Assembly (NCBI GenBank): GCA_027023025.1 | Contig: JALVXB010000023.1 | Coordinates: forward strand, 1-39,622 | Direction: 5' to 3' | Length of the DNA: 39,622 nucleotides | Origin: Caldisericaceae bacterium | GTDB lineage: Bacteria; Caldisericota; Caldisericia; Caldisericales; Caldisericaceae | Shown here: piece by piece, positions 594-28,054 of the stretch | Numbering within the stretch: the first letter of the stretch is position 1 | Layout of the letters: each line of letters begins with the position of its first letter | Translations under genes and position numbers: made by a program | The notes under the pieces: model-generated | What the model saw: the letters and a program-made list of their open reading frames with translations, nothing else | Told to the model about the DNA's origin: nothing | Databases searched by the model: none

Positions 594-617
594 TAATAAT
601 TTGTGAGGGAGGTTAAG

Positions 618-2618
618 ATGGAGAGTTTTGGTATTGTTTTTGTATTTGGTCTTTTATCCTTGATTGTCGCCCTATCTCTCGGTATTATCGTAATAAAGAA
701 AAGTTCTGGAAATGAAGTAATGGTTAAAATTTCTCGTGCTATTCAACATGGTGCATCTGCTTTCCTTATAGAAGAATATAAAACTATGTCGATCTGGGTT
801 ATAATTTTTGCCGCTATTATATGGTTTATTATATCTCCCTATGTAGCAATAAGTTTTGTTCTGGGAACTATACTTTCTGTCTTGTCTGGATATCTTGGAA
901 TGGCTATTGCAACCCGTGCAAACGGAAGAACTGCACAGGCGGCGCGCACGAGTCTTGGTGAAGCACTAAAGGTTGCGTTTTCTGGTGGTTCTGTTATGGG
1001 TTTGACTGTTACAGGACTCGGTATTTTAGGTTCTATTTCCACATATCTTTTTGCTCTCCACTTCTTATCTAAAACTATTAATCCCCTTATCGTAATTACG
1101 GGCTACTCGATGGGTGCAAGTTTTGTTGCTTTATTTGCACGCGTTGGTGGTGGTATATATACGAAAGCGGCCGATGTGGGAGCGGACCTCGTAGGTAAAA
1201 TAGAAGCGGGAATTCCTGAAGATGACCCGAGAAATCCTGCAGTAATTGCAGATAATGTAGGAGATGATGTAGGAGATACTGCAGGGATGGGCGCAGACCT
1301 TTACGAATCTTATGTAGGTTCTATCTTGAGTGGTGTAATTCTTGGGAGTTTTGCTTTTGGTATTTCGGGCGTAAAGTTTGTTTACCTTATTGCAGGTTAT
1401 GGCATACTTGCTTCGATAATAGGAGTGTTATCGGTACTTTTAATTGCGCGTGGAAATGTAAATCCACAGAAAGCACTAAACATAGGAACTATTGTTGCAA
1501 ATGCTATTGCAATTTTATTTATGTGGTACCTATCTGTTTCTGTTATTCACGATATTGGTACTTTCTTTGCGATTTTGTCAGGACTCGTAGTAGGGCTTGC
1601 AATTGGATTTATTACGCAGTATTATACGAGTGGTAACCCAATAAAAATTATAGCAAAGTCTTCTTCGGAAGGTGGTGCTGCTACTACAATTCTTTCCGGT
1701 ATGGCTGTAGGTTTGCAGAGTACATTTTTACCATTGATATTCATTGCAGTAGGGGTAGTAGTCGCCTATCTTACGGCAGGTTTGTTTGGTATTGCTCTTG
1801 CTGGAATAGGAATGCTGGCTACGCTGGGTATAAACTTAAGTGTGGATGCGTATGGTCCTATTGCGGATAATGCGGGTGGAATTGCAGAGATGTCTGGACT
1901 GCCTGAGGAAGTAAGGGAAAGGACTGACATACTGGATGCACTTGGAAATACGACCGCCGCAATGGGTAAAGGATTTGCAATTGGTTCTGCAGCGCTTACC
2001 GCACTTGCACTATTTTCTTCGTATGCAAAAGCGGTAAATCTTACATCAATTAATATGCTTTCTCCTTATGTCGTTGCAGGTGCCTTAATTGGAGGTGCTT
2101 TGCCTTACCTGTTCTCTTCGTTCTCTATTATGGCCGTAAGTGATACTGCCAATCTTATGGTTGAAGAAGTTAGAAGGCAGTTCCACGAAATTCCAGGACT
2201 TATGCTAGGAAAAGCAGATCCAGATTACAAGCGTTGTGTTGCAATTAGTACAAAAGGTGCTTTAAAAAATATGATTTTACCGTCTGCGATTGCAGTTATT
2301 GCCCCATTTGCGACATTTTTTGCTTTCTGGAAGTACGGAAAGAATGCGCTTGGAGGTTTACTCGTAGGTGCTCTTATTTCTGGTGTTCTTCTTGCTATTT
2401 ATATGGCAAATGCTGGTGCAAGCTGGGATAATTCTAAAAAGTTTATTGAGCAAGGAAATTTTGGAGGCAAGGGTTCTGAAGCACATAGAGCAAGTGTTGT
2501 GGGCGATACTGTAGGTGACCCATTAAAGGATACAGCAGGGCCTTCACTTAATATACTTATAAAGCTTATGGTTACTGTATCTCTTTTATTTATTCCTTAT
2601 TTAGTTAAACTTTTGTAG
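618..2618 (+). CDS. hppA: Membrane-bound K+-dependent ion-pumping pyrophosphatase
   Basis: This inner-membrane enzyme hydrolyses pyrophosphate and uses the energy to export Na+ and/or H+. The protein is 666 aa, almost wholly hydrophobic segments. Visible signatures are the pyrophosphate/Mg loop DVGADLVGK (186-194), DNVGDDVGD (212-220), an ion-gate Glu in LYESY (E230), GNTTAA (443-448) and the C-terminal DTVGDPLKDTAGPSLN. Alanine at 447 instead of lysine is the known mark of the K+-dependent subclass. The surroundings resemble the Thermotoga Na+ pump, but the ion cannot be settled from sequence. The usual DNVGDNVGD has Asp for Asn at 217. I chose ATG 618, preceded four bases earlier by AGGGAGGT; the in-frame GTG at 603 lies upstream of that site. 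It follows tRNA-Thr directly and is one base upstream of the LCP gene. Confidence 0.96.
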   Translation: MESFGIVFVFGLLSLIVALSLGIIVIKKSSGNEVMVKISRAIQHGASAFLIEEYKTMSIWVIIFAAIIWFIISPYVAISFVLGTILSVLSGYLGMAIATRANGRTAQAARTSLGEALKVAFSGGSVMGLTVTGLGILGSISTYLFALHFLSKTINPLIVITGYSMGASFVALFARVGGGIYTKAADVGADLVGKIEAGIPEDDPRNPAVIADNVGDDVGDTAGMGADLYESYVGSILSGVILGSFAFGISGVKFVYLIAGYGILASIIGVLSVLLIARGNVNPQKALNIGTIVANAIAILFMWYLSVSVIHDIGTFFAILSGLVVGLAIGFITQYYTSGNPIKIIAKSSSEGGAATTILSGMAVGLQSTFLPLIFIAVGVVVAYLTAGLFGIALAGIGMLATLGINLSVDAYGPIADNAGGIAEMSGLPEEVRERTDILDALGNTTAAMGKGFAIGSAALTALALFSSYAKAVNLTSINMLSPYVVAGALIGGALPYLFSSFSIMAVSDTANLMVEEVRRQFHEIPGLMLGKADPDYKRCVAISTKGALKNMILPSAIAVIAPFATFFAFWKYGKNALGGLLVGALISGVLLAIYMANAGASWDNSKKFIEQGNFGGKGSEAHRASVVGDTVGDPLKDTAGPSLNILIKLMVTVSLLFIPYLVKLL

Positions 2619-19826: not shown

Positions 19827-22613
19827 ATGAAAAAGTTATTAACCTTTTTTCTAACGCTTGTATTATTATTTAGTTTTGTTTTTCCGATAAACAGTTATGC
19901 AGTAAATAATTTTACCGTAGTTGCTTTTGTTCCTTCTCCGCCTTCTGTAGATTCTTTTGCAAGCTATCTCTTAGATTTAAATCTTTCGGCCGACTTTAAA
20001 ACAAATGATTTTATCTCTATAACATTTCCGTCAGATTTTGCTCTACCTTCGGTAATTCCTACAGATCTCGTTAAGATAAACGGCTCCAATGCTTCTAAGG
20101 TAGAAGTTAACGGCAGTGTAGTTAGAGTATATCCTGCTTCAACGATTCCAAGTGGTAGTGAAGTAATATTAAAAATAGACAGACGGGCTAAAATTAAGAA
20201 CCCGTCAAATCCGGGAAATTATAACTTTACTATAGGAATCTCCAGCGAAACAGGCACTCAGACTGTTTCAGTAACGATTACTAAAGGTATTTCTCACCTT
20301 TCTGTTCTCGTTACTCCCGATAGAACTTCTACCAATGCGATGTATATAATTTCTTTTTATACATCGGAGAATGGAGGGCTAAGTGGGGTAAACGGAGACA
20401 ATATTACGGTTATTTTCCCTCAGGGAACAATTTTTACCAAAACAAGCATACCAAATTCTGCTATCACTGTAAACGGATATGCTATATCTGGTTTAGTGCT
20501 TACGGAAAATGTTTTAAAAATTCTACTTCCACAGGGTCTTAACATTCCTAACAATGGGTTTGTGTCTATTCAAATTTCTGAAAGTGCAGGTATTAAAAAC
20601 CCAGCACAGCCTGGAGATTATTTTTTGTCTGTCTTTACAGATAAAGATCCTGTCGTTACTAATACAATGATTACAATAAAGGGAACTGCCGTAAGTGATT
20701 TTTATGTATCTGTTGTTCCAAATACACAAAATGCCAATTCTGAAATCAGACTCCACTTCATAACTTCCGAAAATGGAAGTTTGAAAAAGGATAAAGATAA
20801 AATTCTAATCAAGTTTCCTGGAGGTTTCACACTTCCGCAGCATCCAGATTTTTCTTTTGTATCTATAAATAGTATCAAAGTAAAAGATGGTTCTATTTCA
20901 AAAAATGGCCTCATCTCACTCTTAGTTCCGCTTGACATTGCCTCGAATAGTTCTGTAAATGTGCTAATACAAAAGTCTTTTGGAATTAAGAATCCAAACC
21001 AGAAAGGTATCTACGAGTTTGTACTTTATACAACTAAAGATGTAATGCCAGTATCGTCAAATGTTCAGATTAATCCTTCTCACATATCTGCACCGCTTTT
21101 TACTCTTTCTGTTCCGCAGATTTCAGCAAGTTCGGACTATAAGGTAATATTTTTTACAGGGCCGGGAGGTTCATTAACACAAAATGTTGGCAAGATTTAT
21201 ATAGTTTTCCCGGAAGGATTTTCACTGCCTTCCACGATAAATCCTTCTAATATTTTTATAGATAAACAGCCTGTGCGGAAACCAATAACTGTTCAACAAA
21301 ACAAAATTATTATACCAGTTCCGTTAAACATATCTGGAAATTCGGGTGTAGTAATAGAGCTTTCTAAAAAATGTGGTATTAGAAATCCTGCAATTAGTGG
21401 TGTATACACATTAACTGTATATACGAGTGCAGAGCAACTACCTGTTATTTCTACTGGCATTTATATTAATGATCTTCCTATTTCGAGCGCTGTCGTTACG
21501 CCAGAGAAACCTGATGGTAAAAATGGCTTTTATAAAACTCATCCTAAGATAACCCTTTCCGTTATCAGCCCGTATAGTGACACTAAAATTTATTATTACT
21601 TTGACAATAGTGAGAAGGTTTTGTATAACGGTACTCCTGTGGTTGTTCCTGATGGTATTCATAAGTTTTATTTTTATGCGAAAAACAAAAATGGAGAAAT
21701 AGAAGAGAGGCTTCACGAAATAGACTTCAAGGTAGATACAGTTTCACCTTTTATAACAATTACTTCCCCAAAGAGTGATCAGGTAAATAGCAGTTATACG
21801 GTGTTGTCCGGAAGTACAGAAGCAGGTGCTACTATTACTATAAATGGTGATTATGTACCTGTTGATAAGAACGGTAATTTCTCTGTTGTTGTAAGTGGAA
21901 GTGGAAGCAAAACATTTAAGATAGTTGCTGTTGACCCTGCTGGTAATAGTGCTTCAAAAACGATAGTGTTGAATTTTAATACAACACCTCAAAATCCCCC
22001 CAATCTTGATGTTATATCCCCCCAGGATGGAACTACCGTTTATATGGCGAACCTTGTGGTAAGTGGAAAAACGGATCCAGGTGCAACTGTAACTGTTAAC
22101 GGGAAGGGTGCAGATGTTGATTCTAATGGTTCATTTACTGTGAGTTTAACTTTACAACCAGGCCAGAATAAAATTACAGTTACTGCTGAGAAAAATGGTG
22201 CAAAGTCTGAAAAGGTAATTTATATAAAGTACATTAAAAGCATTGCAATGAAACTCCAGATCGGTAACAGTAATGCAATCGTTAACGGAGTCGTGGTGTC
22301 GCTTGATGCACCACCCGTCATAATTAACAACAGGACATTAGTGCCGCTGCGGTTTATAAGCGAATCTTTTGGTGCTAATGTAGAATGGGATCCTGTGCTC
22401 AGAATTGTAGAAGTTTCCTTTAATGGTACTACCATAAAACTTCAGATAGATAATAAATTGGCTTCTGTTAACGGCAAAAAGGTTATTTTGGATTCTCCTC
22501 CTCAGATTATAAATGGAAGAACTATGGTTCCTTTGAGATTTATTGTTGAATCCTTTAATGCCCATGTAGAATGGGATGAGGGCACTCAAACAATAACTAT
22601 TACTTATCCTTAA
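19827..22613 (+). CDS. Secreted repeat protein with Ig-like and copper-amine-oxidase-N domains
   Basis: A 928-aa exported protein. A Sec signal peptide is clear (MKKLLTFFLTLVLLFSFVFP, cleavage probably after NSYA). Four repeats of about 130 residues follow (about 26-545), each with a FP..F.LP strand motif and ending in a G-I-K/R-N-P...G-x-Y motif (KIKNPSNPGNY, GIKNPAQPGDY, GIKNPNQKGIY, GIRNPAISGVY). Next come a chitobiase-C-like segment (about 550-640, KIYYYFDNSEKVLYNG), two Ig-like repeats (each with ...GATxTxNG) and two copper-amine-oxidase-N-like repeats at the C-terminus (TLVPLRFISESFGANVEWD and MVPLRFIVESFNAHVEWD). It has no membrane anchor or sorting motif. Attachment to a cell-wall or S-layer polymer is likely but unproven. 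Confidence 0.88.
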   Translation: MKKLLTFFLTLVLLFSFVFPINSYAVNNFTVVAFVPSPPSVDSFASYLLDLNLSADFKTNDFISITFPSDFALPSVIPTDLVKINGSNASKVEVNGSVVRVYPASTIPSGSEVILKIDRRAKIKNPSNPGNYNFTIGISSETGTQTVSVTITKGISHLSVLVTPDRTSTNAMYIISFYTSENGGLSGVNGDNITVIFPQGTIFTKTSIPNSAITVNGYAISGLVLTENVLKILLPQGLNIPNNGFVSIQISESAGIKNPAQPGDYFLSVFTDKDPVVTNTMITIKGTAVSDFYVSVVPNTQNANSEIRLHFITSENGSLKKDKDKILIKFPGGFTLPQHPDFSFVSINSIKVKDGSISKNGLISLLVPLDIASNSSVNVLIQKSFGIKNPNQKGIYEFVLYTTKDVMPVSSNVQINPSHISAPLFTLSVPQISASSDYKVIFFTGPGGSLTQNVGKIYIVFPEGFSLPSTINPSNIFIDKQPVRKPITVQQNKIIIPVPLNISGNSGVVIELSKKCGIRNPAISGVYTLTVYTSAEQLPVISTGIYINDLPISSAVVTPEKPDGKNGFYKTHPKITLSVISPYSDTKIYYYFDNSEKVLYNGTPVVVPDGIHKFYFYAKNKNGEIEERLHEIDFKVDTVSPFITITSPKSDQVNSSYTVLSGSTEAGATITINGDYVPVDKNGNFSVVVSGSGSKTFKIVAVDPAGNSASKTIVLNFNTTPQNPPNLDVISPQDGTTVYMANLVVSGKTDPGATVTVNGKGADVDSNGSFTVSLTLQPGQNKITVTAEKNGAKSEKVIYIKYIKSIAMKLQIGNSNAIVNGVVVSLDAPPVIINNRTLVPLRFISESFGANVEWDPVLRIVEVSFNGTTIKLQIDNKLASVNGKKVILDSPPQIINGRTMVPLRFIVESFNAHVEWDEGTQTITITYP

Positions 22614-22650: not shown

Positions 22651-22681
22651 ATAAAATAAGGGGGTGTGAGTCACCCCCTTA
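22651..22681 (-). terminator. Terminator of the two-component operon
   Basis: A 10-bp stem, TAAGGGGGTG / CACCCCCTTA (22657-22666 and 22672-22681), has a five-base loop. On the minus strand it is followed by TTTTAT and more T, so it ends the regulator operon. On the plus strand it is followed by A, not T, so it is not a good terminator for the surface-protein gene. Confidence 0.85.
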
Positions 22682-22692
22682 AAAATAGGATT

Positions 22693-24132
22693 CTATAGTA
22701 TTTTATCAAGGTCTATTTTGTAGTCCCTTATTTTATTAAATAACGACTTTCTTGATATGCCAAGTATTTTGGCTGCTTTAGTTTTATTTCCTCCGCATTT
22801 TTTAAGGGCTTTTATTATCATGTCTTTTTCTATTCTTGCAATCACTGTGGGTAGCGGTTCTATTTTTCCTGTTTCTTCGGAGCGCGTAGAACTATTACCG
22901 TTTAGAGTATTTGAGTTTTTATTGGTAGCCTCCTCTGTGTGTTGTTCGCTTTTATACTTGGTTAAAAGTTCCGGAGGCAAATGCTCTTTCATTATTAAAG
23001 GAACAGATGTAATAATAACTCCTCTTGCAATAGCATTTTCCAGTTCTCTTACATTTCCGGGCCAGTTGTAGTCCATAAATATCTTCATTACTTCTTCTGA
23101 AACTCCCTGAACGACTTTTCCATACTTTCTCGAATATTTTGAAATAAAGTATGCAACGAGTTCTGGAATGTCTTCCTTCCTTTCCCTGAGAGGCGGTATG
23201 GAAATTGTCACTACATTTAACCTGTAGTAAAGGTCTTCTCTAAATTTTCCTTCTGTTACGAGTTTTTCCAGGTTTCTGTTTGTAGCAGCAATAATCCTGG
23301 CGTTTGAAACGAGAGTTTCGTGTCCGCCTACGCGTTCAAAAGTTTTCTCTTGAAGCACTCTTAAGATTTTTGCCTGTAAAGGTAAGCTCATATCACCAAT
23401 TTCGTCCAGGAATATCGTTCCGTCTTTTGCCTGTTCAAATTTGCCTATGTGTTTTGAAACTGCATCTGTAAAGGCACCTTTTTCGTGTCCAAATAATTCT
23501 GATTCAAGCAAATTTTCTGGTATTGCAGCGCAGTTAACTGCAATGAAAGGTTTATTTCTTCTATTACTGTGTAAGTAGATGGCTCGTGCCACGAGTTCTT
23601 TACCCGTACCACTTTCGCCTCTTATCAGGACTGTTGCGTCTGAATCTGCTACTCTGCCTATTGACTTGTAAACTTCCTGCATCTTTGGAGAATCGCCTAT
23701 TATTTCATCTTGTTTATATTGCTTTCCAAAATTGGAGGATGTGAGACTTGACGATAATTCTTTAAGTTCTATTGCCTTCTTAATTTTTATTTTTATTTCG
23801 TCTATGTCAAATGGTTTTGTTAAATAGTCATATGCGCCTTTCTTCATTGCTTTTATCGCGATGTCAGAACTTCCGTATGCAGTAATAAATATTACGGGTA
23901 GGTCTGGTGCGATGTCGCGAATTTTTAAGAACGCTTCCATTCCGTCCATAACTGGCATGCGGACATCTAACAATACGCAATCAGGATATTTTTCATTTAC
24001 TGCTTTTACTGCTTCAAGTCCGTTCTGTGCCTCTATTACATTGTAGTCTTCCTCTTCCAGAATTTCGTGTAATAAACTCCTTACATTTTCTTCGTCATCT
24101 GCTACGAGTATAGTATACTTTTTAAGTTTCAT
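22693..24132 (-). CDS. NtrC-type sigma-54-activating response regulator
   Basis: A 479-aa three-domain regulator. The receiver has D12, D13, phospho-acceptor D56, T84 and K106. The AAA+ domain has Walker A GESGTGKE (172-179), GAFTDA (219-224) in the place of the canonical GAFTGA, FLDEIGD (Walker B), RVLQEKTFERVGG and a WPGNVRELEN sensor region. The Fis-type HTH is at the C-terminus (about 430-479, KTKAAKILGISRKSLFNKI). The family remodels sigma-54 RNA polymerase. GAGGTG precedes the ATG, 10 bases after the kinase stop. It is the last gene of the pncC-PFK-PFK-kinase operon; its targets are unknown, and I did not find a clear -24/-12 promoter in this window. Confidence 0.93.
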   Translation of the reverse strand: MKLKKYTILVADDEENVRSLLHEILEEEDYNVIEAQNGLEAVKAVNEKYPDCVLLDVRMPVMDGMEAFLKIRDIAPDLPVIFITAYGSSDIAIKAMKKGAYDYLTKPFDIDEIKIKIKKAIELKELSSSLTSSNFGKQYKQDEIIGDSPKMQEVYKSIGRVADSDATVLIRGESGTGKELVARAIYLHSNRRNKPFIAVNCAAIPENLLESELFGHEKGAFTDAVSKHIGKFEQAKDGTIFLDEIGDMSLPLQAKILRVLQEKTFERVGGHETLVSNARIIAATNRNLEKLVTEGKFREDLYYRLNVVTISIPPLRERKEDIPELVAYFISKYSRKYGKVVQGVSEEVMKIFMDYNWPGNVRELENAIARGVIITSVPLIMKEHLPPELLTKYKSEQHTEEATNKNSNTLNGNSSTRSEETGKIEPLPTVIARIEKDMIIKALKKCGGNKTKAAKILGISRKSLFNKIRDYKIDLDKIL

Positions 24133-24142
24133 TTTTCACCTC

Positions 24143-25516
24143 TTATGTAGGCAAGTAAATCTCAAATGTCGTACCTTTACCTTTTTCACTCTGGACATCT
24201 ATTCTTCCACCGTGTTCTTTCACGATTCTATAGACTATTGCAAGGCCAAGGCCTGTGCCTTCTGCTTTCGTCGTGTAAAATGGAACGAATATGTGTTCTA
24301 ATTGATTTTTATCCATTCCTTTTCCTGTATCTGAAAGTACTATTTTTGTATATTCCCCTTCCTTTTTGCACCGTATTTTGATGTCGCCGTCTTTTTCAAT
24401 TGCTTGTATACTATTTATAAGTAAGTTTAAGAAGAGTTCTTCGCACTTCTTTTCGTCTGCGTAGAGTTCAATATCGTCACACTTTACATCGAAGTTAATA
24501 TTTTTGTTTGTTGCAAATTGTTTTGCCAATCCTACTACGATACCGAAAAATTTGTTTATGTTGAATTTAGTTTTATTTAGCGGGGTTGGTTTTCCGTAAT
24601 TTAATAAGTCTTTTACGATTCTGCTGAGCCTATCTGTTTCTCTGAGAATTGGCTTTATGTACTTTTCTTCTGGTTTACCACTAAGCTTTTTTTCCAGTAT
24701 TTGTGCAAATCCTTTGATTGAGGTAAGTGGATTCCTTACCTCGTGAACTACTCCAGCCGTAAATAATCCAAGTGTTCTTAGCGCCTCGTTTCGCTGAGAT
24801 TCTTCTATGTTCTTTTTCAGGCTTTCTGCCATTGCATTTATAGATATTGCGATGTCTCCAATTTCTCCTGAAAAACGGGGCAATCTGTAATCAAGGTCTT
24901 TTTCCAGTACCTTTAGTCCCTTCTTGATCTTAACTATTTTGAAAGTGAATATTGAAGTAACTATTAATACAAATAAGGCAGCAAGTAATGCGGAATATAC
25001 GGTAACTCGGTTAGACTCTTCTCTTATTTCGTTCACAGGCCTCATGATTATTGGGTACGGTTCGTCGACGAACACATACCCTTTTTGCATTTTTTTTGTA
25101 TATATAGGCTTTATTATGGTGAGTTTTTTGCTGAGTTTATACCTGGGATTACTAAGATATACTACCTTATTGTCGATAGGTGGTATGTAATACCCCATTT
25201 CCAATTCTGGGAAACTTTTTTTAAGATTTTTGAAGTATTTGTCAAAGGCAGGTTTCAGAAACTTTTGTAAGTAAAACTTTTGCTTATCCAGTGTAAGGTG
25301 TCCAAAATCCCACTGAAGTGCATTTCCCTCGTATAACTTTTGATACTTGTCAACGAGCTGGTCTGCTACTACCTCTATGCGTTTTGTTTCTACGGAAAAA
25401 ATTTCGTTTCTTACGCTATTAATTACTACAGAGGTAACAAATACCATCGTTAAAACGACGAATAATACGAGCACCGTAGTAAGCTGAAACCTTATTGACT
25501 GGAAAAAGCGCTTCAT
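24143..25516 (-). CDS. Membrane sensor histidine kinase
   Basis: A 457-aa kinase. Helix one spans about 11-33, an extracytoplasmic sensor domain of roughly 135 residues follows (34-170), and helix two spans 171-194; then a HAMP-like linker, a HisKA domain with phospho-His258 in VVHEVRNPL, and an HATPase with N box NLLINSIQAI, SDTGKGM and GTGLGLAIV. All key residues are present. The sensor domain resembles nothing I can name. The start directly abuts the ATP-type PFK stop with GGAGG upstream. It pairs with the adjacent NtrC-type regulator. Confidence 0.93.
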   Translation of the reverse strand: MKRFFQSIRFQLTTVLVLFVVLTMVFVTSVVINSVRNEIFSVETKRIEVVADQLVDKYQKLYEGNALQWDFGHLTLDKQKFYLQKFLKPAFDKYFKNLKKSFPELEMGYYIPPIDNKVVYLSNPRYKLSKKLTIIKPIYTKKMQKGYVFVDEPYPIIMRPVNEIREESNRVTVYSALLAALFVLIVTSIFTFKIVKIKKGLKVLEKDLDYRLPRFSGEIGDIAISINAMAESLKKNIEESQRNEALRTLGLFTAGVVHEVRNPLTSIKGFAQILEKKLSGKPEEKYIKPILRETDRLSRIVKDLLNYGKPTPLNKTKFNINKFFGIVVGLAKQFATNKNINFDVKCDDIELYADEKKCEELFLNLLINSIQAIEKDGDIKIRCKKEGEYTKIVLSDTGKGMDKNQLEHIFVPFYTTKAEGTGLGLAIVYRIVKEHGGRIDVQSEKGKGTTFEIYLPT

Positions 25517-26479
25517 CTATACGGATACTTCCTCCGCAAGTTTGTATAATGATTTATCGATTGTTTTCTGCTTCGTTACGGCATCTTTTAAGGGGATCAG
25601 CGTGATTTTATTATCTTTTATTCCGACGAGCTTCCCTTTTTCTCCGGATAGTAGTGCGTCTACTGCATGTTGGCCAAATTCTGAGGCGATAATCCTGTCA
25701 AATCTCGTAGGGGCTCCTCCTCTCTGTATGTAACCAAGCACCGAAACCCTTGTTTCTACATTGGGCATATATTCTTTAATTTTTTTCTCTAAGTCTCTCG
25801 CGTGAATTGCGCCTTCTGCACATACGATAAGGTGATGCATTTTCCTTTTTTTAAATGCTTCTCTCATGTTATCCGTTATTTTTTTAATGTCGAACTTAAC
25901 TTCGGGGACGAGAATGAAGTCTGCACCTCCTGCAAGTCCTGCATCGAGTGCAATAAATCCTGCTTCGCGTCCCATGACTTCTACAATAAATGTGCGTCCG
26001 TGTGAAACTGCAGCGTCTCTTATTTTGTCAATTGCATTAATTGCCGTATTTACTGCTGTGTCGAATCCAATTGTATAGTCTGTTCCCCAGAGGTCATTGT
26101 CTATCGTGGAAGCAATTCCTATAGTCGGAAAACCTTTTTCAAATAATGCAAGGTTTCCACTTTGAGATCCGTTCCCACCGATTACTATAAGGCCTTCAAT
26201 TTCTTCTTCTTTCATGTTCTTAATTGCCTTTTCTTGATTTTCCGTTAACTTAAAGTCTGGCACTCTGCTTGTTCTGAGAATTGTACCTCCTCTTTCCAAA
26301 ATACCACTTACATCTCTTGGAAGTAATGGGTGGAAGTCTTTCGTGAGAAGCCCTCTGTATCCGTAATAAACGCCAATAATTTCTACTCCCCTTACATATC
26401 CAACTCTTACTACACTTCTGATTGCTGCGTTCATTCCGGAGGCATCGCCTCCGGAAGTAAGTACGGCTATCCTTTTCAT
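25517..26479 (-). CDS. pfkA: 6-phosphofructokinase, ATP-type paralogue
   Basis: A 320-aa group-A PFK converting fructose 6-phosphate to the 1,6-bisphosphate. N-terminal SGGDASGMN (9-17), GGNGSQSG (101-108), STIDNDLWGTD (124-134, catalytic Asp127) and VEVMGREAGF are visible, as is YIQRGGAPTRFD. Gly104 and the absence of Lys at the PKT position point to ATP rather than pyrophosphate. Oddly, Asn103 replaces the Mg-binding Asp of E. coli GGDGS. The start overlaps the PPi-type PFK stop by four bases (ATGA), with GAGGTG upstream. It could be catalytically altered or regulatory. Confidence 0.9.
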   Translation of the reverse strand: MKRIAVLTSGGDASGMNAAIRSVVRVGYVRGVEIIGVYYGYRGLLTKDFHPLLPRDVSGILERGGTILRTSRVPDFKLTENQEKAIKNMKEEEIEGLIVIGGNGSQSGNLALFEKGFPTIGIASTIDNDLWGTDYTIGFDTAVNTAINAIDKIRDAAVSHGRTFIVEVMGREAGFIALDAGLAGGADFILVPEVKFDIKKITDNMREAFKKRKMHHLIVCAEGAIHARDLEKKIKEYMPNVETRVSVLGYIQRGGAPTRFDRIIASEFGQHAVDALLSGEKGKLVGIKDNKITLIPLKDAVTKQKTIDKSLYKLAEEVSV

Positions 26480-27492
26480 TTTAAAAACACCTCTAATAAG
26501 TCAATCCATTCTTTAGTAACGAGTTTTAGTTTTCCTGTGGCATCCTTAAGAGGTACGGAAACAATTTCATTTCCTTTTAGTGCGGCCATTTTTCCAAAAT
26601 CTCCATCGTGAATCATGTCTACGGCTTTCACGCCTACTCTTGAGCCAAGCATTCTGTCAAATACGGTTGGCGAACCTCCCCTTTGCATGTGTCCGATCAC
26701 GGCAGAGCGGGTCGGTATTCCTGTTTTCTTTTTTATAAGGTTTGCTACATAGTCTGCTACTCCTCTCTTTTGTAGCAACTTGTGGCCGAACTGATCTACT
26801 TCGCTTTCTGCATCAATGGGAAGTTCAGTGCCTTCGGAGACTACGACCAGTGCATATCCTTTTCTGTCAAAGTCTTTTTCAAGATGCTTGCACATTCTTT
26901 CAAAGTCTGGTTTTACTTCTGGTATTAAAACCCAGTCTGCACCTCCTGCGATACCCGTATAAAGTGCTACCCATCCTGCTTCTCTTCCCATAACCTCGAG
27001 TACAATTATTCTTTTGTGGGAACGGGCCGTGTCTCTTAGCCTATTTAATGCATCTACCGCTACATTTACCGATGTGTCAAATCCAAATGTGAAGTCAGTA
27101 CCTGAAAGGTCGTTGTCCATCGTCTTTGGCACACCTACTACTTTTACACCCTTCTCGTAAAGTTTAGAAGCCACTCCAAGTGTGTCGTCTCCACCGATTG
27201 CGACGAGTGCGTCAAGTCCCAATTCTTTCATATTTTCTATAGCTCTTTCGGCACCGCCCTCTATGGAAAAGGGGTTCGTTCTGGATGTGAAAAGTATCGT
27301 TCCCCCGAAATTGATAATTTCATCTACTTCATTTAAAGAGAGCGGCCTGGTGATTTTTTCTAGAAGACCTTTCCATCCCTGTTCAATACCTATTACTTCG
27401 TCACCAAAATCCATTGCCCTAAATACTATGCCTCTGATAGCAGGGTTTAATCCGGGGCAGTCTCCGCCCCCAGTAAGCACACCTATTTTCAT
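26476..27492 (-). CDS. pfp: Phosphofructokinase, pyrophosphate-type
   Basis: A 338-aa PFK-fold enzyme. TGGGDCPGLN (8-17), GGDDTLG (100-106), VPKTMDND (121-128) and VEVMGREAGW are visible, with HMQRGGSPTVFD near 275. Asp at the second position of the GGDD motif (E. coli Gly104) and Lys in PKT (E. coli Gly124) are the established markers of pyrophosphate-dependent phosphofructokinase, which runs reversibly with PPi. AGGAGG precedes the ATG, three bases after the pncC stop. It lies next to the ATP-type paralogue, so the cell would have both. Confidence 0.88.
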   Translation of the reverse strand: MKIGVLTGGGDCPGLNPAIRGIVFRAMDFGDEVIGIEQGWKGLLEKITRPLSLNEVDEIINFGGTILFTSRTNPFSIEGGAERAIENMKELGLDALVAIGGDDTLGVASKLYEKGVKVVGVPKTMDNDLSGTDFTFGFDTSVNVAVDALNRLRDTARSHKRIIVLEVMGREAGWVALYTGIAGGADWVLIPEVKPDFERMCKHLEKDFDRKGYALVVVSEGTELPIDAESEVDQFGHKLLQKRGVADYVANLIKKKTGIPTRSAVIGHMQRGGSPTVFDRMLGSRVGVKAVDMIHDGDFGKMAALKGNEIVSVPLKDATGKLKLVTKEWIDLLEVFLK

Positions 27493-27494
27493 CT

Positions 27495-27962
27495 TTAACC
27501 TCCTAATAGTTTTATTATTTTTTTAATACCAAAATTGGACGCTTCTTCTCTTATTTTTTCTCTACTGCCTTGAAAGTGTTTTTCTTCAACTTCTTTCATA
27601 TCGTTAACAATAATGCCTATAAATACTGTGCCAACATCTTTATTTTCCTGCTTTTCTGGTCCAGCAACTCCAGTAAAACTTATTGCAATATCCGAATTAA
27701 AAAGCAATTTTACATTTTCAACCATAGCGAGTGCCGTTTCTTTACTTACCGCACCAAATTTATTTATTATGCCGTGTGGCACTTTTAGGATGTGCTCTTT
27801 TGCAAAGTAACTGTAAGCAATTATTCCGCCTAAAAAGTACTTTGAACTTCCGGGGACATCTGTTATTAGTTTACAAAACAATCCCCCGGTAAGTGACTCT
27901 GCAGCAGCAACTGTTAACTTCTTTTCTATTAGTATTTTACCTAATTTTTCTTCGTTTTTCAT
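27495..27962 (-). CDS. pncC: CinA C-terminal domain protein, probable NMN amidohydrolase
   Basis: A 155-aa stand-alone CinA-C/PncC domain. Family members deamidate nicotinamide mononucleotide to nicotinic acid mononucleotide, recycling NMN from NAD use. Seen are AAAESLTGGL, DVPGSSKYFLGGIIAYS, GAVSKETA and ISFTGVAGP, the conserved Ser/Lys catalytic regions. The frame is open 18 codons further upstream, but I chose ATG 27962: a good promoter (27986-28013) ends between the two ATGs, and an AGAAGG sits before the second. It heads the PFK and two-component operon. Confidence 0.82.
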   Translation of the reverse strand: MKNEEKLGKILIEKKLTVAAAESLTGGLFCKLITDVPGSSKYFLGGIIAYSYFAKEHILKVPHGIINKFGAVSKETALAMVENVKLLFNSDIAISFTGVAGPEKQENKDVGTVFIGIIVNDMKEVEEKHFQGSREKIREEASNFGIKKIIKLLGG

Positions 27963-27985
27963 TTTACTTGAAACCTTCTGTGAAA

Positions 27986-28013
27986 ATTTTACACATTTTT
28001 TTATTAAATGCAA
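27986..28013 (-). promoter_or_regulatory. Promoter of the pncC-PFK-kinase-regulator operon
   Basis: On the minus strand TTGCAT (28013-28008) and TAAAAT (27991-27986) are 16 bases apart. The start near 27979 gives a leader of about 17 bases to ATG 27962. It falls inside the longer open frame, supporting the shorter pncC start. Confidence 0.55.
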
Positions 28014-28054
28014 CATTTAATTTCTCGTTGCCGTTTCTTAAATTATTGCTGATG

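Follow-up and report, generated by a model that had tools for sequence, protein, structure and literature searches.

Two adjacent genes for 6-phosphofructokinase (PFK), one resembling PPi-dependent and the other ATP-dependent enzymes, lie within the 39,622-nucleotide stretch of Caldisericaceae DNA analysed here (the window). Why should one bacterium keep both side by side: as two enzymes for one glycolytic step, as subunits of a mixed complex, or as enzymes for the two directions of that step? The reading that we think probable is that of two separate active PFKs, made from one transcript and splitting the interconversion of fructose 6-phosphate (F6P) and fructose 1,6-bisphosphate (FBP) by phosphate donor, the PPi-type enzyme being used for the reverse step. 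The single transcript, the donors, the directions, the regulation and the role of a linked two-component system are all predictions from sequence.

Layout of the locus

ORF calling gives the pair exactly the interval 25517-27492 on the minus strand. Transcription runs from right to left, so the gene of the PPi-type PFK (26476..27492, 338 aa) is the upstream member and that of the ATP-type PFK (25517..26479, 320 aa) the downstream one. The two share an ATGA stop/start of 4 bp (26476..26479, minus strand), read directly from the sequence. A gene with a cinA-type PncC domain (27495..28016, minus strand) lies 2 bp upstream of the PPi-PFK gene and would be the first of the likely transcription unit. 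On the other side, a sensor histidine kinase gene (24143..25516, minus strand; a weak HAMP domain, HisKA and HATPase) begins one base past the ATP-PFK stop, and is followed by a gene whose domain profiles are those of an NtrC-type response regulator (22693..24132, minus strand; receiver, sigma-54 AAA and Fis HTH domains). With successive spacings of 2 bp, a 4-bp overlap, 0 bp and 10 bp, the genes from the cinA-type one to the regulator are most simply read as a single transcription unit.

The likely end of this unit is a terminator-like hairpin of 10 pairs with a T tail, 3' of the regulator gene (22657..22681, minus strand); the scan found 6 terminator-like sites vs 5.1 expected in shuffled sequence, and only strength and place favour this one. 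A promoter scan gave 17 sites vs 14.6 expected, nothing clear of chance. The gene hppA, for a membrane pyrophosphatase of the sodium-translocating family (603..2618, plus strand; PF03030), is about 23 kb off and on the opposite strand, and therefore outside the PFK operon, in a separate transcription unit. The cinA-type gene adjoins the PFK pair in 11/11 neighbourhoods compared in the window's family, and was not seen beside the pair in a second family in the same comparison. Past the operon end, on the opposite strand, 19827-22613 encodes a protein of 928 aa in which Ig-like domains occur together with a stalk-type Cu_amine_oxidN1 domain.

Donor and effector residues of the two enzymes

Both proteins match PF00365 (355.6 and 345.5 bits for the pair, cut-off 30.9) and have close relatives of known structure; residues of all PFKs are numbered as in G. 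stearothermophilus. The upstream PFK, apparently of the group III or PFK_mixed kind, scores best with TIGR02483 (PFK_mixed), yet under its cut-off (425.1 vs 430.55 bits), and passes the broader NF002872 (389.8 vs 253), a family named as ATP-dependent. We assign its putative donor by residues and claim no membership of TIGR02483.

The donor residues of the upstream enzyme are D103, D104, T105, V108 and K124 (GGDDT, PKT). Published work gives GG(D/E)D(S/T)xxx as the donor motif of PPi-PFKs (PMC11609450) and, as the rule for the PPi type, Lys at 124 (PKT) with a residue bigger than Gly at 108 (PMC12203962). The upstream PFK fits, having Asp at 104, Lys at 124 and a non-Gly residue (Val) at 108. 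The earlier note had recognised the PPi type by GGDD and PKT, and the match of D103, D104 and K124 to the published motifs argues that it was right. Residue 25 is Phe, so that the effector-site Arg25 is missing. Bacterial PPi-PFKs are described as reversible and generally non-allosteric, ATP-PFKs as effectively irreversible in vivo (PMC12203962).

The downstream PFK passes TIGR02482, PFKA_ATP (380.8 vs a cut-off of 371.35). Its donor residues are N103, G104, S105, G108 and S124 (GGNGSxxG). The usual GGDG and PGTID motifs are not matched, N103 replacing Asp and S124 replacing Gly; in GGDG the invariant residue is reported to be Gly rather than Asp (PMC12203962). Thus the earlier note, which had pointed to the ATP-type Gly and a GGNGS loop, was right about Gly104, but Asn at 103 and Ser at 124 make the site atypical. 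Both substitutions are fixed in the ATP-type PFKs of four families of the phylum (f1, f3, f4 and f6; see below), and N103 is common in relatives from Bacteroidota and Lachnospiraceae among the best 80 of 559 confirmed loci. The enzyme also has Tyr at 249, where most relatives compared have His. Asn103 as the mark of a dead enzyme was ruled out, GGNGS/T being present in many relatives among those best 80 of 559 loci. The closest named match to the window, again among the best 80 of 559, is the Caldisericaceae isolate AUK232, with 89% identity in the ATP-type protein.

We regard as unlikely that this GGNGS enzyme uses a donor other than ATP, either GTP or, as in cyanobacteria, ADP. The unusual N103 and S124, fixed as they are in four families, would agree with another donor, and C. 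thermosuccinogenes has an ATP/GTP-PFK (PMC7029132); against it stands the match to the NCBIfam equivalog PFKA_ATP. For ADP, the published PFK-A motif is GGDGSxxI, with Ile at 108 (PMC11609450), and the Gly found there led us to reject ADP dependence.

In the effector site the downstream PFK keeps R21, R25, R154 and K213, and E187 is replaced by Asp. The E187D mutant of E. coli PFK is reported to lose its response to PEP and to keep activation by GDP (PMC10339645). We therefore predict from D187 that the enzyme is activated by NDP and is insensitive to PEP or weakly inhibited by it.

The alignment shows T125, D127, D129, R162, M169, R171, E222, R243 and R252 retained in both PFKs; in the downstream enzyme G104 and G108 complete the set. 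Full catalytic residues in both, and the occurrence of each without the other elsewhere in the phylum (below), predict two working enzymes. Against this two-enzyme reading, N103 and S124 of the ATP-type protein are not the textbook Asp and Gly, and the genome also has a pyruvate kinase.

Conservation of the pair within the phylum

PF00365 was searched over 54 genomes of the phylum, of which 53 matched; types were assigned by motif and BLAST. Families are labelled f1 to f7, f1 being the window's family (Caldisericaceae) and f3 the second family mentioned above. The PPi-type gene followed by the ATP-type gene was found in 16/18 f1 genomes (in one of them, G020, the PPi-type gene is truncated by a contig end); the two f1 genomes lacking it, G010 and G011, are 55-56% complete. 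The same pair occurs in 12/15 f3 genomes, including G024, with the PPi-type gene truncated at a contig end, and G034, with a gapped one; in the remaining 3/15 that gene runs off the contig end where the ATP-type gene would begin. All 15 f3 genomes thus have a PPi-PFK gene, some as contig-end fragments. The gapped protein of G034 (L121) is shorter by about 24 residues, the PKTMDND loop among them, through either an assembly error or a real deletion.

The other families differ. The five f2 genomes have the PPi type only; the five of f6 have no PPi type, and carry the ATP type plus a third paralogue (in G048 the ATP type alone); f4 and f7 (five genomes each) have both types at separate loci and no pair; the single f5 genome has a fragment of an ATP-type gene.

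The earlier note took the overlapping start as a sign of tight coupling. Order and the 4-bp overlap are identical in 15/15 complete f1 pairs, so that the pairing is not a matter of chance, and retention of the tandem in relatives, which the note had left as a point to check, holds in both families. The paired arrangement is old within Caldisericota. In a maximum-likelihood tree of 95 rows, built on selected genomes and outgroups and lacking resolution in the branching order of the PPi types, the ATP types of f1, f3, f4 and f6 form one clade (100/94) apart from the PPi types. Recent tandem duplication is ruled out as the origin of the pair, the two types being deeply separated in the tree.

Among the best 80 of 559 confirmed loci from named genomes, besides L004 of the f1 family, at least one co-directional neighbour pair (L025, Clostridia) and at least one convergent one (L014, Bathyarchaeota) were found, an undercount since the flanks of many loci are short. 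These ATP-type and PPi-type neighbours lie at L025:5998-8241 (Clostridia MAG, same direction) and L014:6001-7988 (Bathyarchaeota MAG, convergent). Open-access titles and abstract beginnings yielded no tandem pair of bacterial PPi- and ATP-PFKs; PPi-dependent and ATP-dependent phosphofructokinase together with operon gave no match in the open-access literature, and Caldisericum exile with phosphofructokinase only an unrelated co-mention in the text available.

Could the two proteins form one hetero-oligomer and modulate each other, like the alpha and beta chains of plant PFP? The tight coupling and the fixed order in 27 pairs read (two with an incomplete or gapped PPi-type gene) would suit such a complex. 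So would the presence in both proteins of R162 and R243, residues that extend into the neighbouring subunit's site when PFK assembles as a tetramer. Neither protein, however, has a degraded active site, and the types occur separately: the PPi type alone in f2, the ATP type without it in f6, both at separate loci in f4 and f7. We consider a complex of this kind quite improbable, and the earlier note's suggestion of subunits as in plant PFP is not upheld: all catalytic residues examined are intact in both proteins, which belong to separate deep parts of the tree and are each found alone in other families. A facultative mixed tetramer of the two is possible.

The reverse step and its metabolic context

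The genome that holds the window is 99.89% complete. It has no match to any of the fructose bisphosphatase (FBPase) families PF01950, PF03320, PF00316, PF06874 and PF00459 in a profile search in which positive controls matched for each. This leaves the PPi-PFK as the candidate for the reverse step, and it may be the sole route for running the F6P/FBP step backwards.

Over the 54 genomes, PF01950 and PF00316 were found in none and PF03320 in 2, both of f7; PF06874 gave 0/54 above cut-off, with one weak sub-threshold match. The broad family PF00459 is present in 15/54 genomes, from one f1 genus, f4, f5 and f6. A PPi-PFK is present in 36/37 genomes lacking all five families, the exception being G046. 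The full classes are PPi-PFK without any of the five families, 36; with one, 7; no PPi-PFK with one, 10; and neither, 1 (Fisher 7.6e-6, counted over related genomes, 2 of the 10 being half-complete members of a genus that otherwise has PPi-PFK). For the 29 genomes at least 90% complete they are 19, 6, 3 and 1 (p 0.076). This anticorrelation mostly reflects shared ancestry and is suggestive only.

For the three PF00459 members tested, the best-scoring models are those of inositol monophosphatase or HisN, and all three proteins lie below every cut-off, that for FBPase included. Thus f4 and f6 may manage without a known FBPase, and often without PPi-PFK, and the argument from absence loses force accordingly. 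The correlation as strong proof was rejected, the genomes being related and the tested PF00459 members passing no FBPase cut-off.

The earlier note proposed a PPi-centred energy economy. In favour are hppA, a pyruvate phosphate dikinase (TIGR01828, 1262.9 vs a cut-off of 843.45) and the lack of a match to the family-I soluble pyrophosphatase (PF00719) in this genome, a family found in 4/54 genomes. The pyruvate kinase speaks against an economy so centred: the cell seems equipped for ATP glycolysis too, and that proposal stands in part.

The same dikinase and pyrophosphatase would also serve two redundant glycolytic isozymes chosen by energy state, PPi-PFK at low ATP and ATP-PFK at low PPi, with no special reverse role. 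Coexisting PFK types have been discussed in such terms in thermophilic clostridia (PMC7029132, PMC10339645). We hold this to be rather unlikely here, since, with none of the five FBPase families present, there is no second candidate for the reverse step. The earlier note assigns both enzymes to one glycolytic step. This is probably too restrictive; the PPi-type PFK makes a good candidate for running that step backwards.

In the division of labour that we favour, the ATP-type PFK would drive F6P to FBP irreversibly and serve glycolysis. The PPi-type PFK, without the effector-site Arg25, would work near equilibrium; it is the most probable catalyst of FBP + Pi -> F6P + PPi during gluconeogenesis. 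Either the membrane pyrophosphatase or pyruvate phosphate dikinase could then consume the PPi so made. PPi may also choose the working enzyme, as substrate of the PPi-PFK and inhibitor of the ATP-PFK: C. thermocellum PfkA is reported to be inhibited by PPi already at 0.05 mM, and T. maritima PfkA likewise to be PPi-inhibited (PMC10339645). In cellulolytic clostridia PPi-PFKs act on sedoheptulose 7-phosphate in place of transaldolase (PMC7029132). The transaldolase family PF00923 occurs in 33/54 genomes overall and in 0/15 of f3, where the PPi-PFK probably phosphorylates sedoheptulose 7-phosphate as well. The genome of the window has a PF00923 protein, a putative transaldolase or F6P aldolase (L219:1046-1873, 275 aa, closest to TIGR00875 and below every NCBIfam cut-off), so that this use is not required here. 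It is from the published reversibility, sedoheptulose 7-phosphate use and PPi inhibition that we infer the division of labour. With its near-complete sequence, its lack of the five FBPase families and its coupling of PPi-PFK to ATP-PFK, this genome allows the gluconeogenic side to be tested directly.

An NtrC-type two-component system beside the PFK genes

A histidine kinase gene directly follows the PFK genes in 16/16 f1 genomes with the pair, and the ATP-type gene in 13/13 f3 genomes with sequence beyond it (partial in G025); the NtrC-type regulator is also present in all f1 and f3 neighbourhoods compared that extend far enough. The order PPi-PFK, kinase, regulator was found in 3/3 f2 loci read, and ATP-PFK, kinase, regulator in 3/5 of f7. 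Thus an NtrC-type two-component system (22693-25516 here) lies directly downstream of a PFK gene in four families, whichever donor type is kept, a linkage that the earlier note had missed. None of the ATP-type loci read in f4 (0/2) and f6 (0/4) has the adjoining kinase and regulator. The sigma-54 DNA-binding family is present in the genome of the window and above cut-off in 0/5 f6 genomes. A PAS domain was seen in one f2 kinase and one f7 kinase scanned, and is absent from the f1 kinases scanned. No PFK/NtrC pairing appeared in open-access titles and abstract beginnings.

A further reading, which we hold to be very improbable, would give the F6P/FBP step a sigma-54 two-component system of its own: a PFK or its product pools would feed the kinase, the regulator would set the balance of glycolysis and gluconeogenesis, and a third PFK (below) would be a non-catalytic, effector-binding partner. 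Should the conserved linkage prove functional, upper glycolysis would here be regulated in an unfamiliar way.

A third, divergent PFK

The genome encodes a third PFK, likewise missed by the earlier note, away from the pair and outside the window (L003:1492-2517, contig C5), between a PmbA/TldD peptidase gene on one side and a DUF4388 and small GTPase pair on the other. In f1 these proteins have R103 next to D104 (GDRDT), K124 and I108, with Y249 in the copy of this genome; those of f3 have A11, R103 and mostly N124. The orthologues in two other families, f4 and f6, lose R171 (to Gly) and change E222 to Asp; they also depart from the others at G11, R72 and the donor loop. Third PFKs of f1, f3, f4 and f6 form one clade with mixed support (99/65), and all five scanned are still named PFK by NCBIfam, via NF002872. 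On these residues the third PFK may be in the course of losing its donor site, and its f4 and f6 forms may be pseudoenzymes.

Comparison with known systems

The enzymes appear to be of known kinds, and what seems new is their arrangement. The upstream PFK resembles the short, group III enzymes of TIGR02483 (PFK_mixed), its best curated match, in its short subunit, GGDD and PKT, and differs in lying 5.5 bits below the curated cut-off. Plant PFP offers the other likeness, two homologous PFK-type polypeptides produced together. One of its two subunits is regulatory, and heterotetramer formation is reportedly named in the title of one study. Here, in contrast, neither active site is degraded, and each lineage is also found alone.

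The clostridia C. (Acetivibrio) thermocellum and C. thermosuccinogenes resemble the present case in having Pfp and PfkA, a PPi-PFK and an ATP/GTP-PFK in one anaerobe, together with a membrane pyrophosphatase and pyruvate phosphate dikinase, and in the inhibition of PfkA by PPi; they differ in that a gene overlap in one operon is not mentioned in the excerpts of these papers (PMC10339645, PMC7029132). The PPi-PFK of the Caldisericota, for its part, has a short subunit and TIGR02483 as its nearest family. Chemosynthetic symbionts and Methylococcus share the absence of an FBPase gene and a reversible PPi-PFK, with a membrane pyrophosphatase proposed to recover PPi, and the idea of a PPi-PFK standing in for FBPase, already put forward for the symbionts, is therefore not itself new (PMC4287430). 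Those organisms differ in being carbon-fixing or C1-using, their PPi-PFK being set in the Calvin cycle (PMC4287430), whereas in the Caldisericota the ATP-PFK gene overlaps that of the PPi-PFK in the same putative operon.
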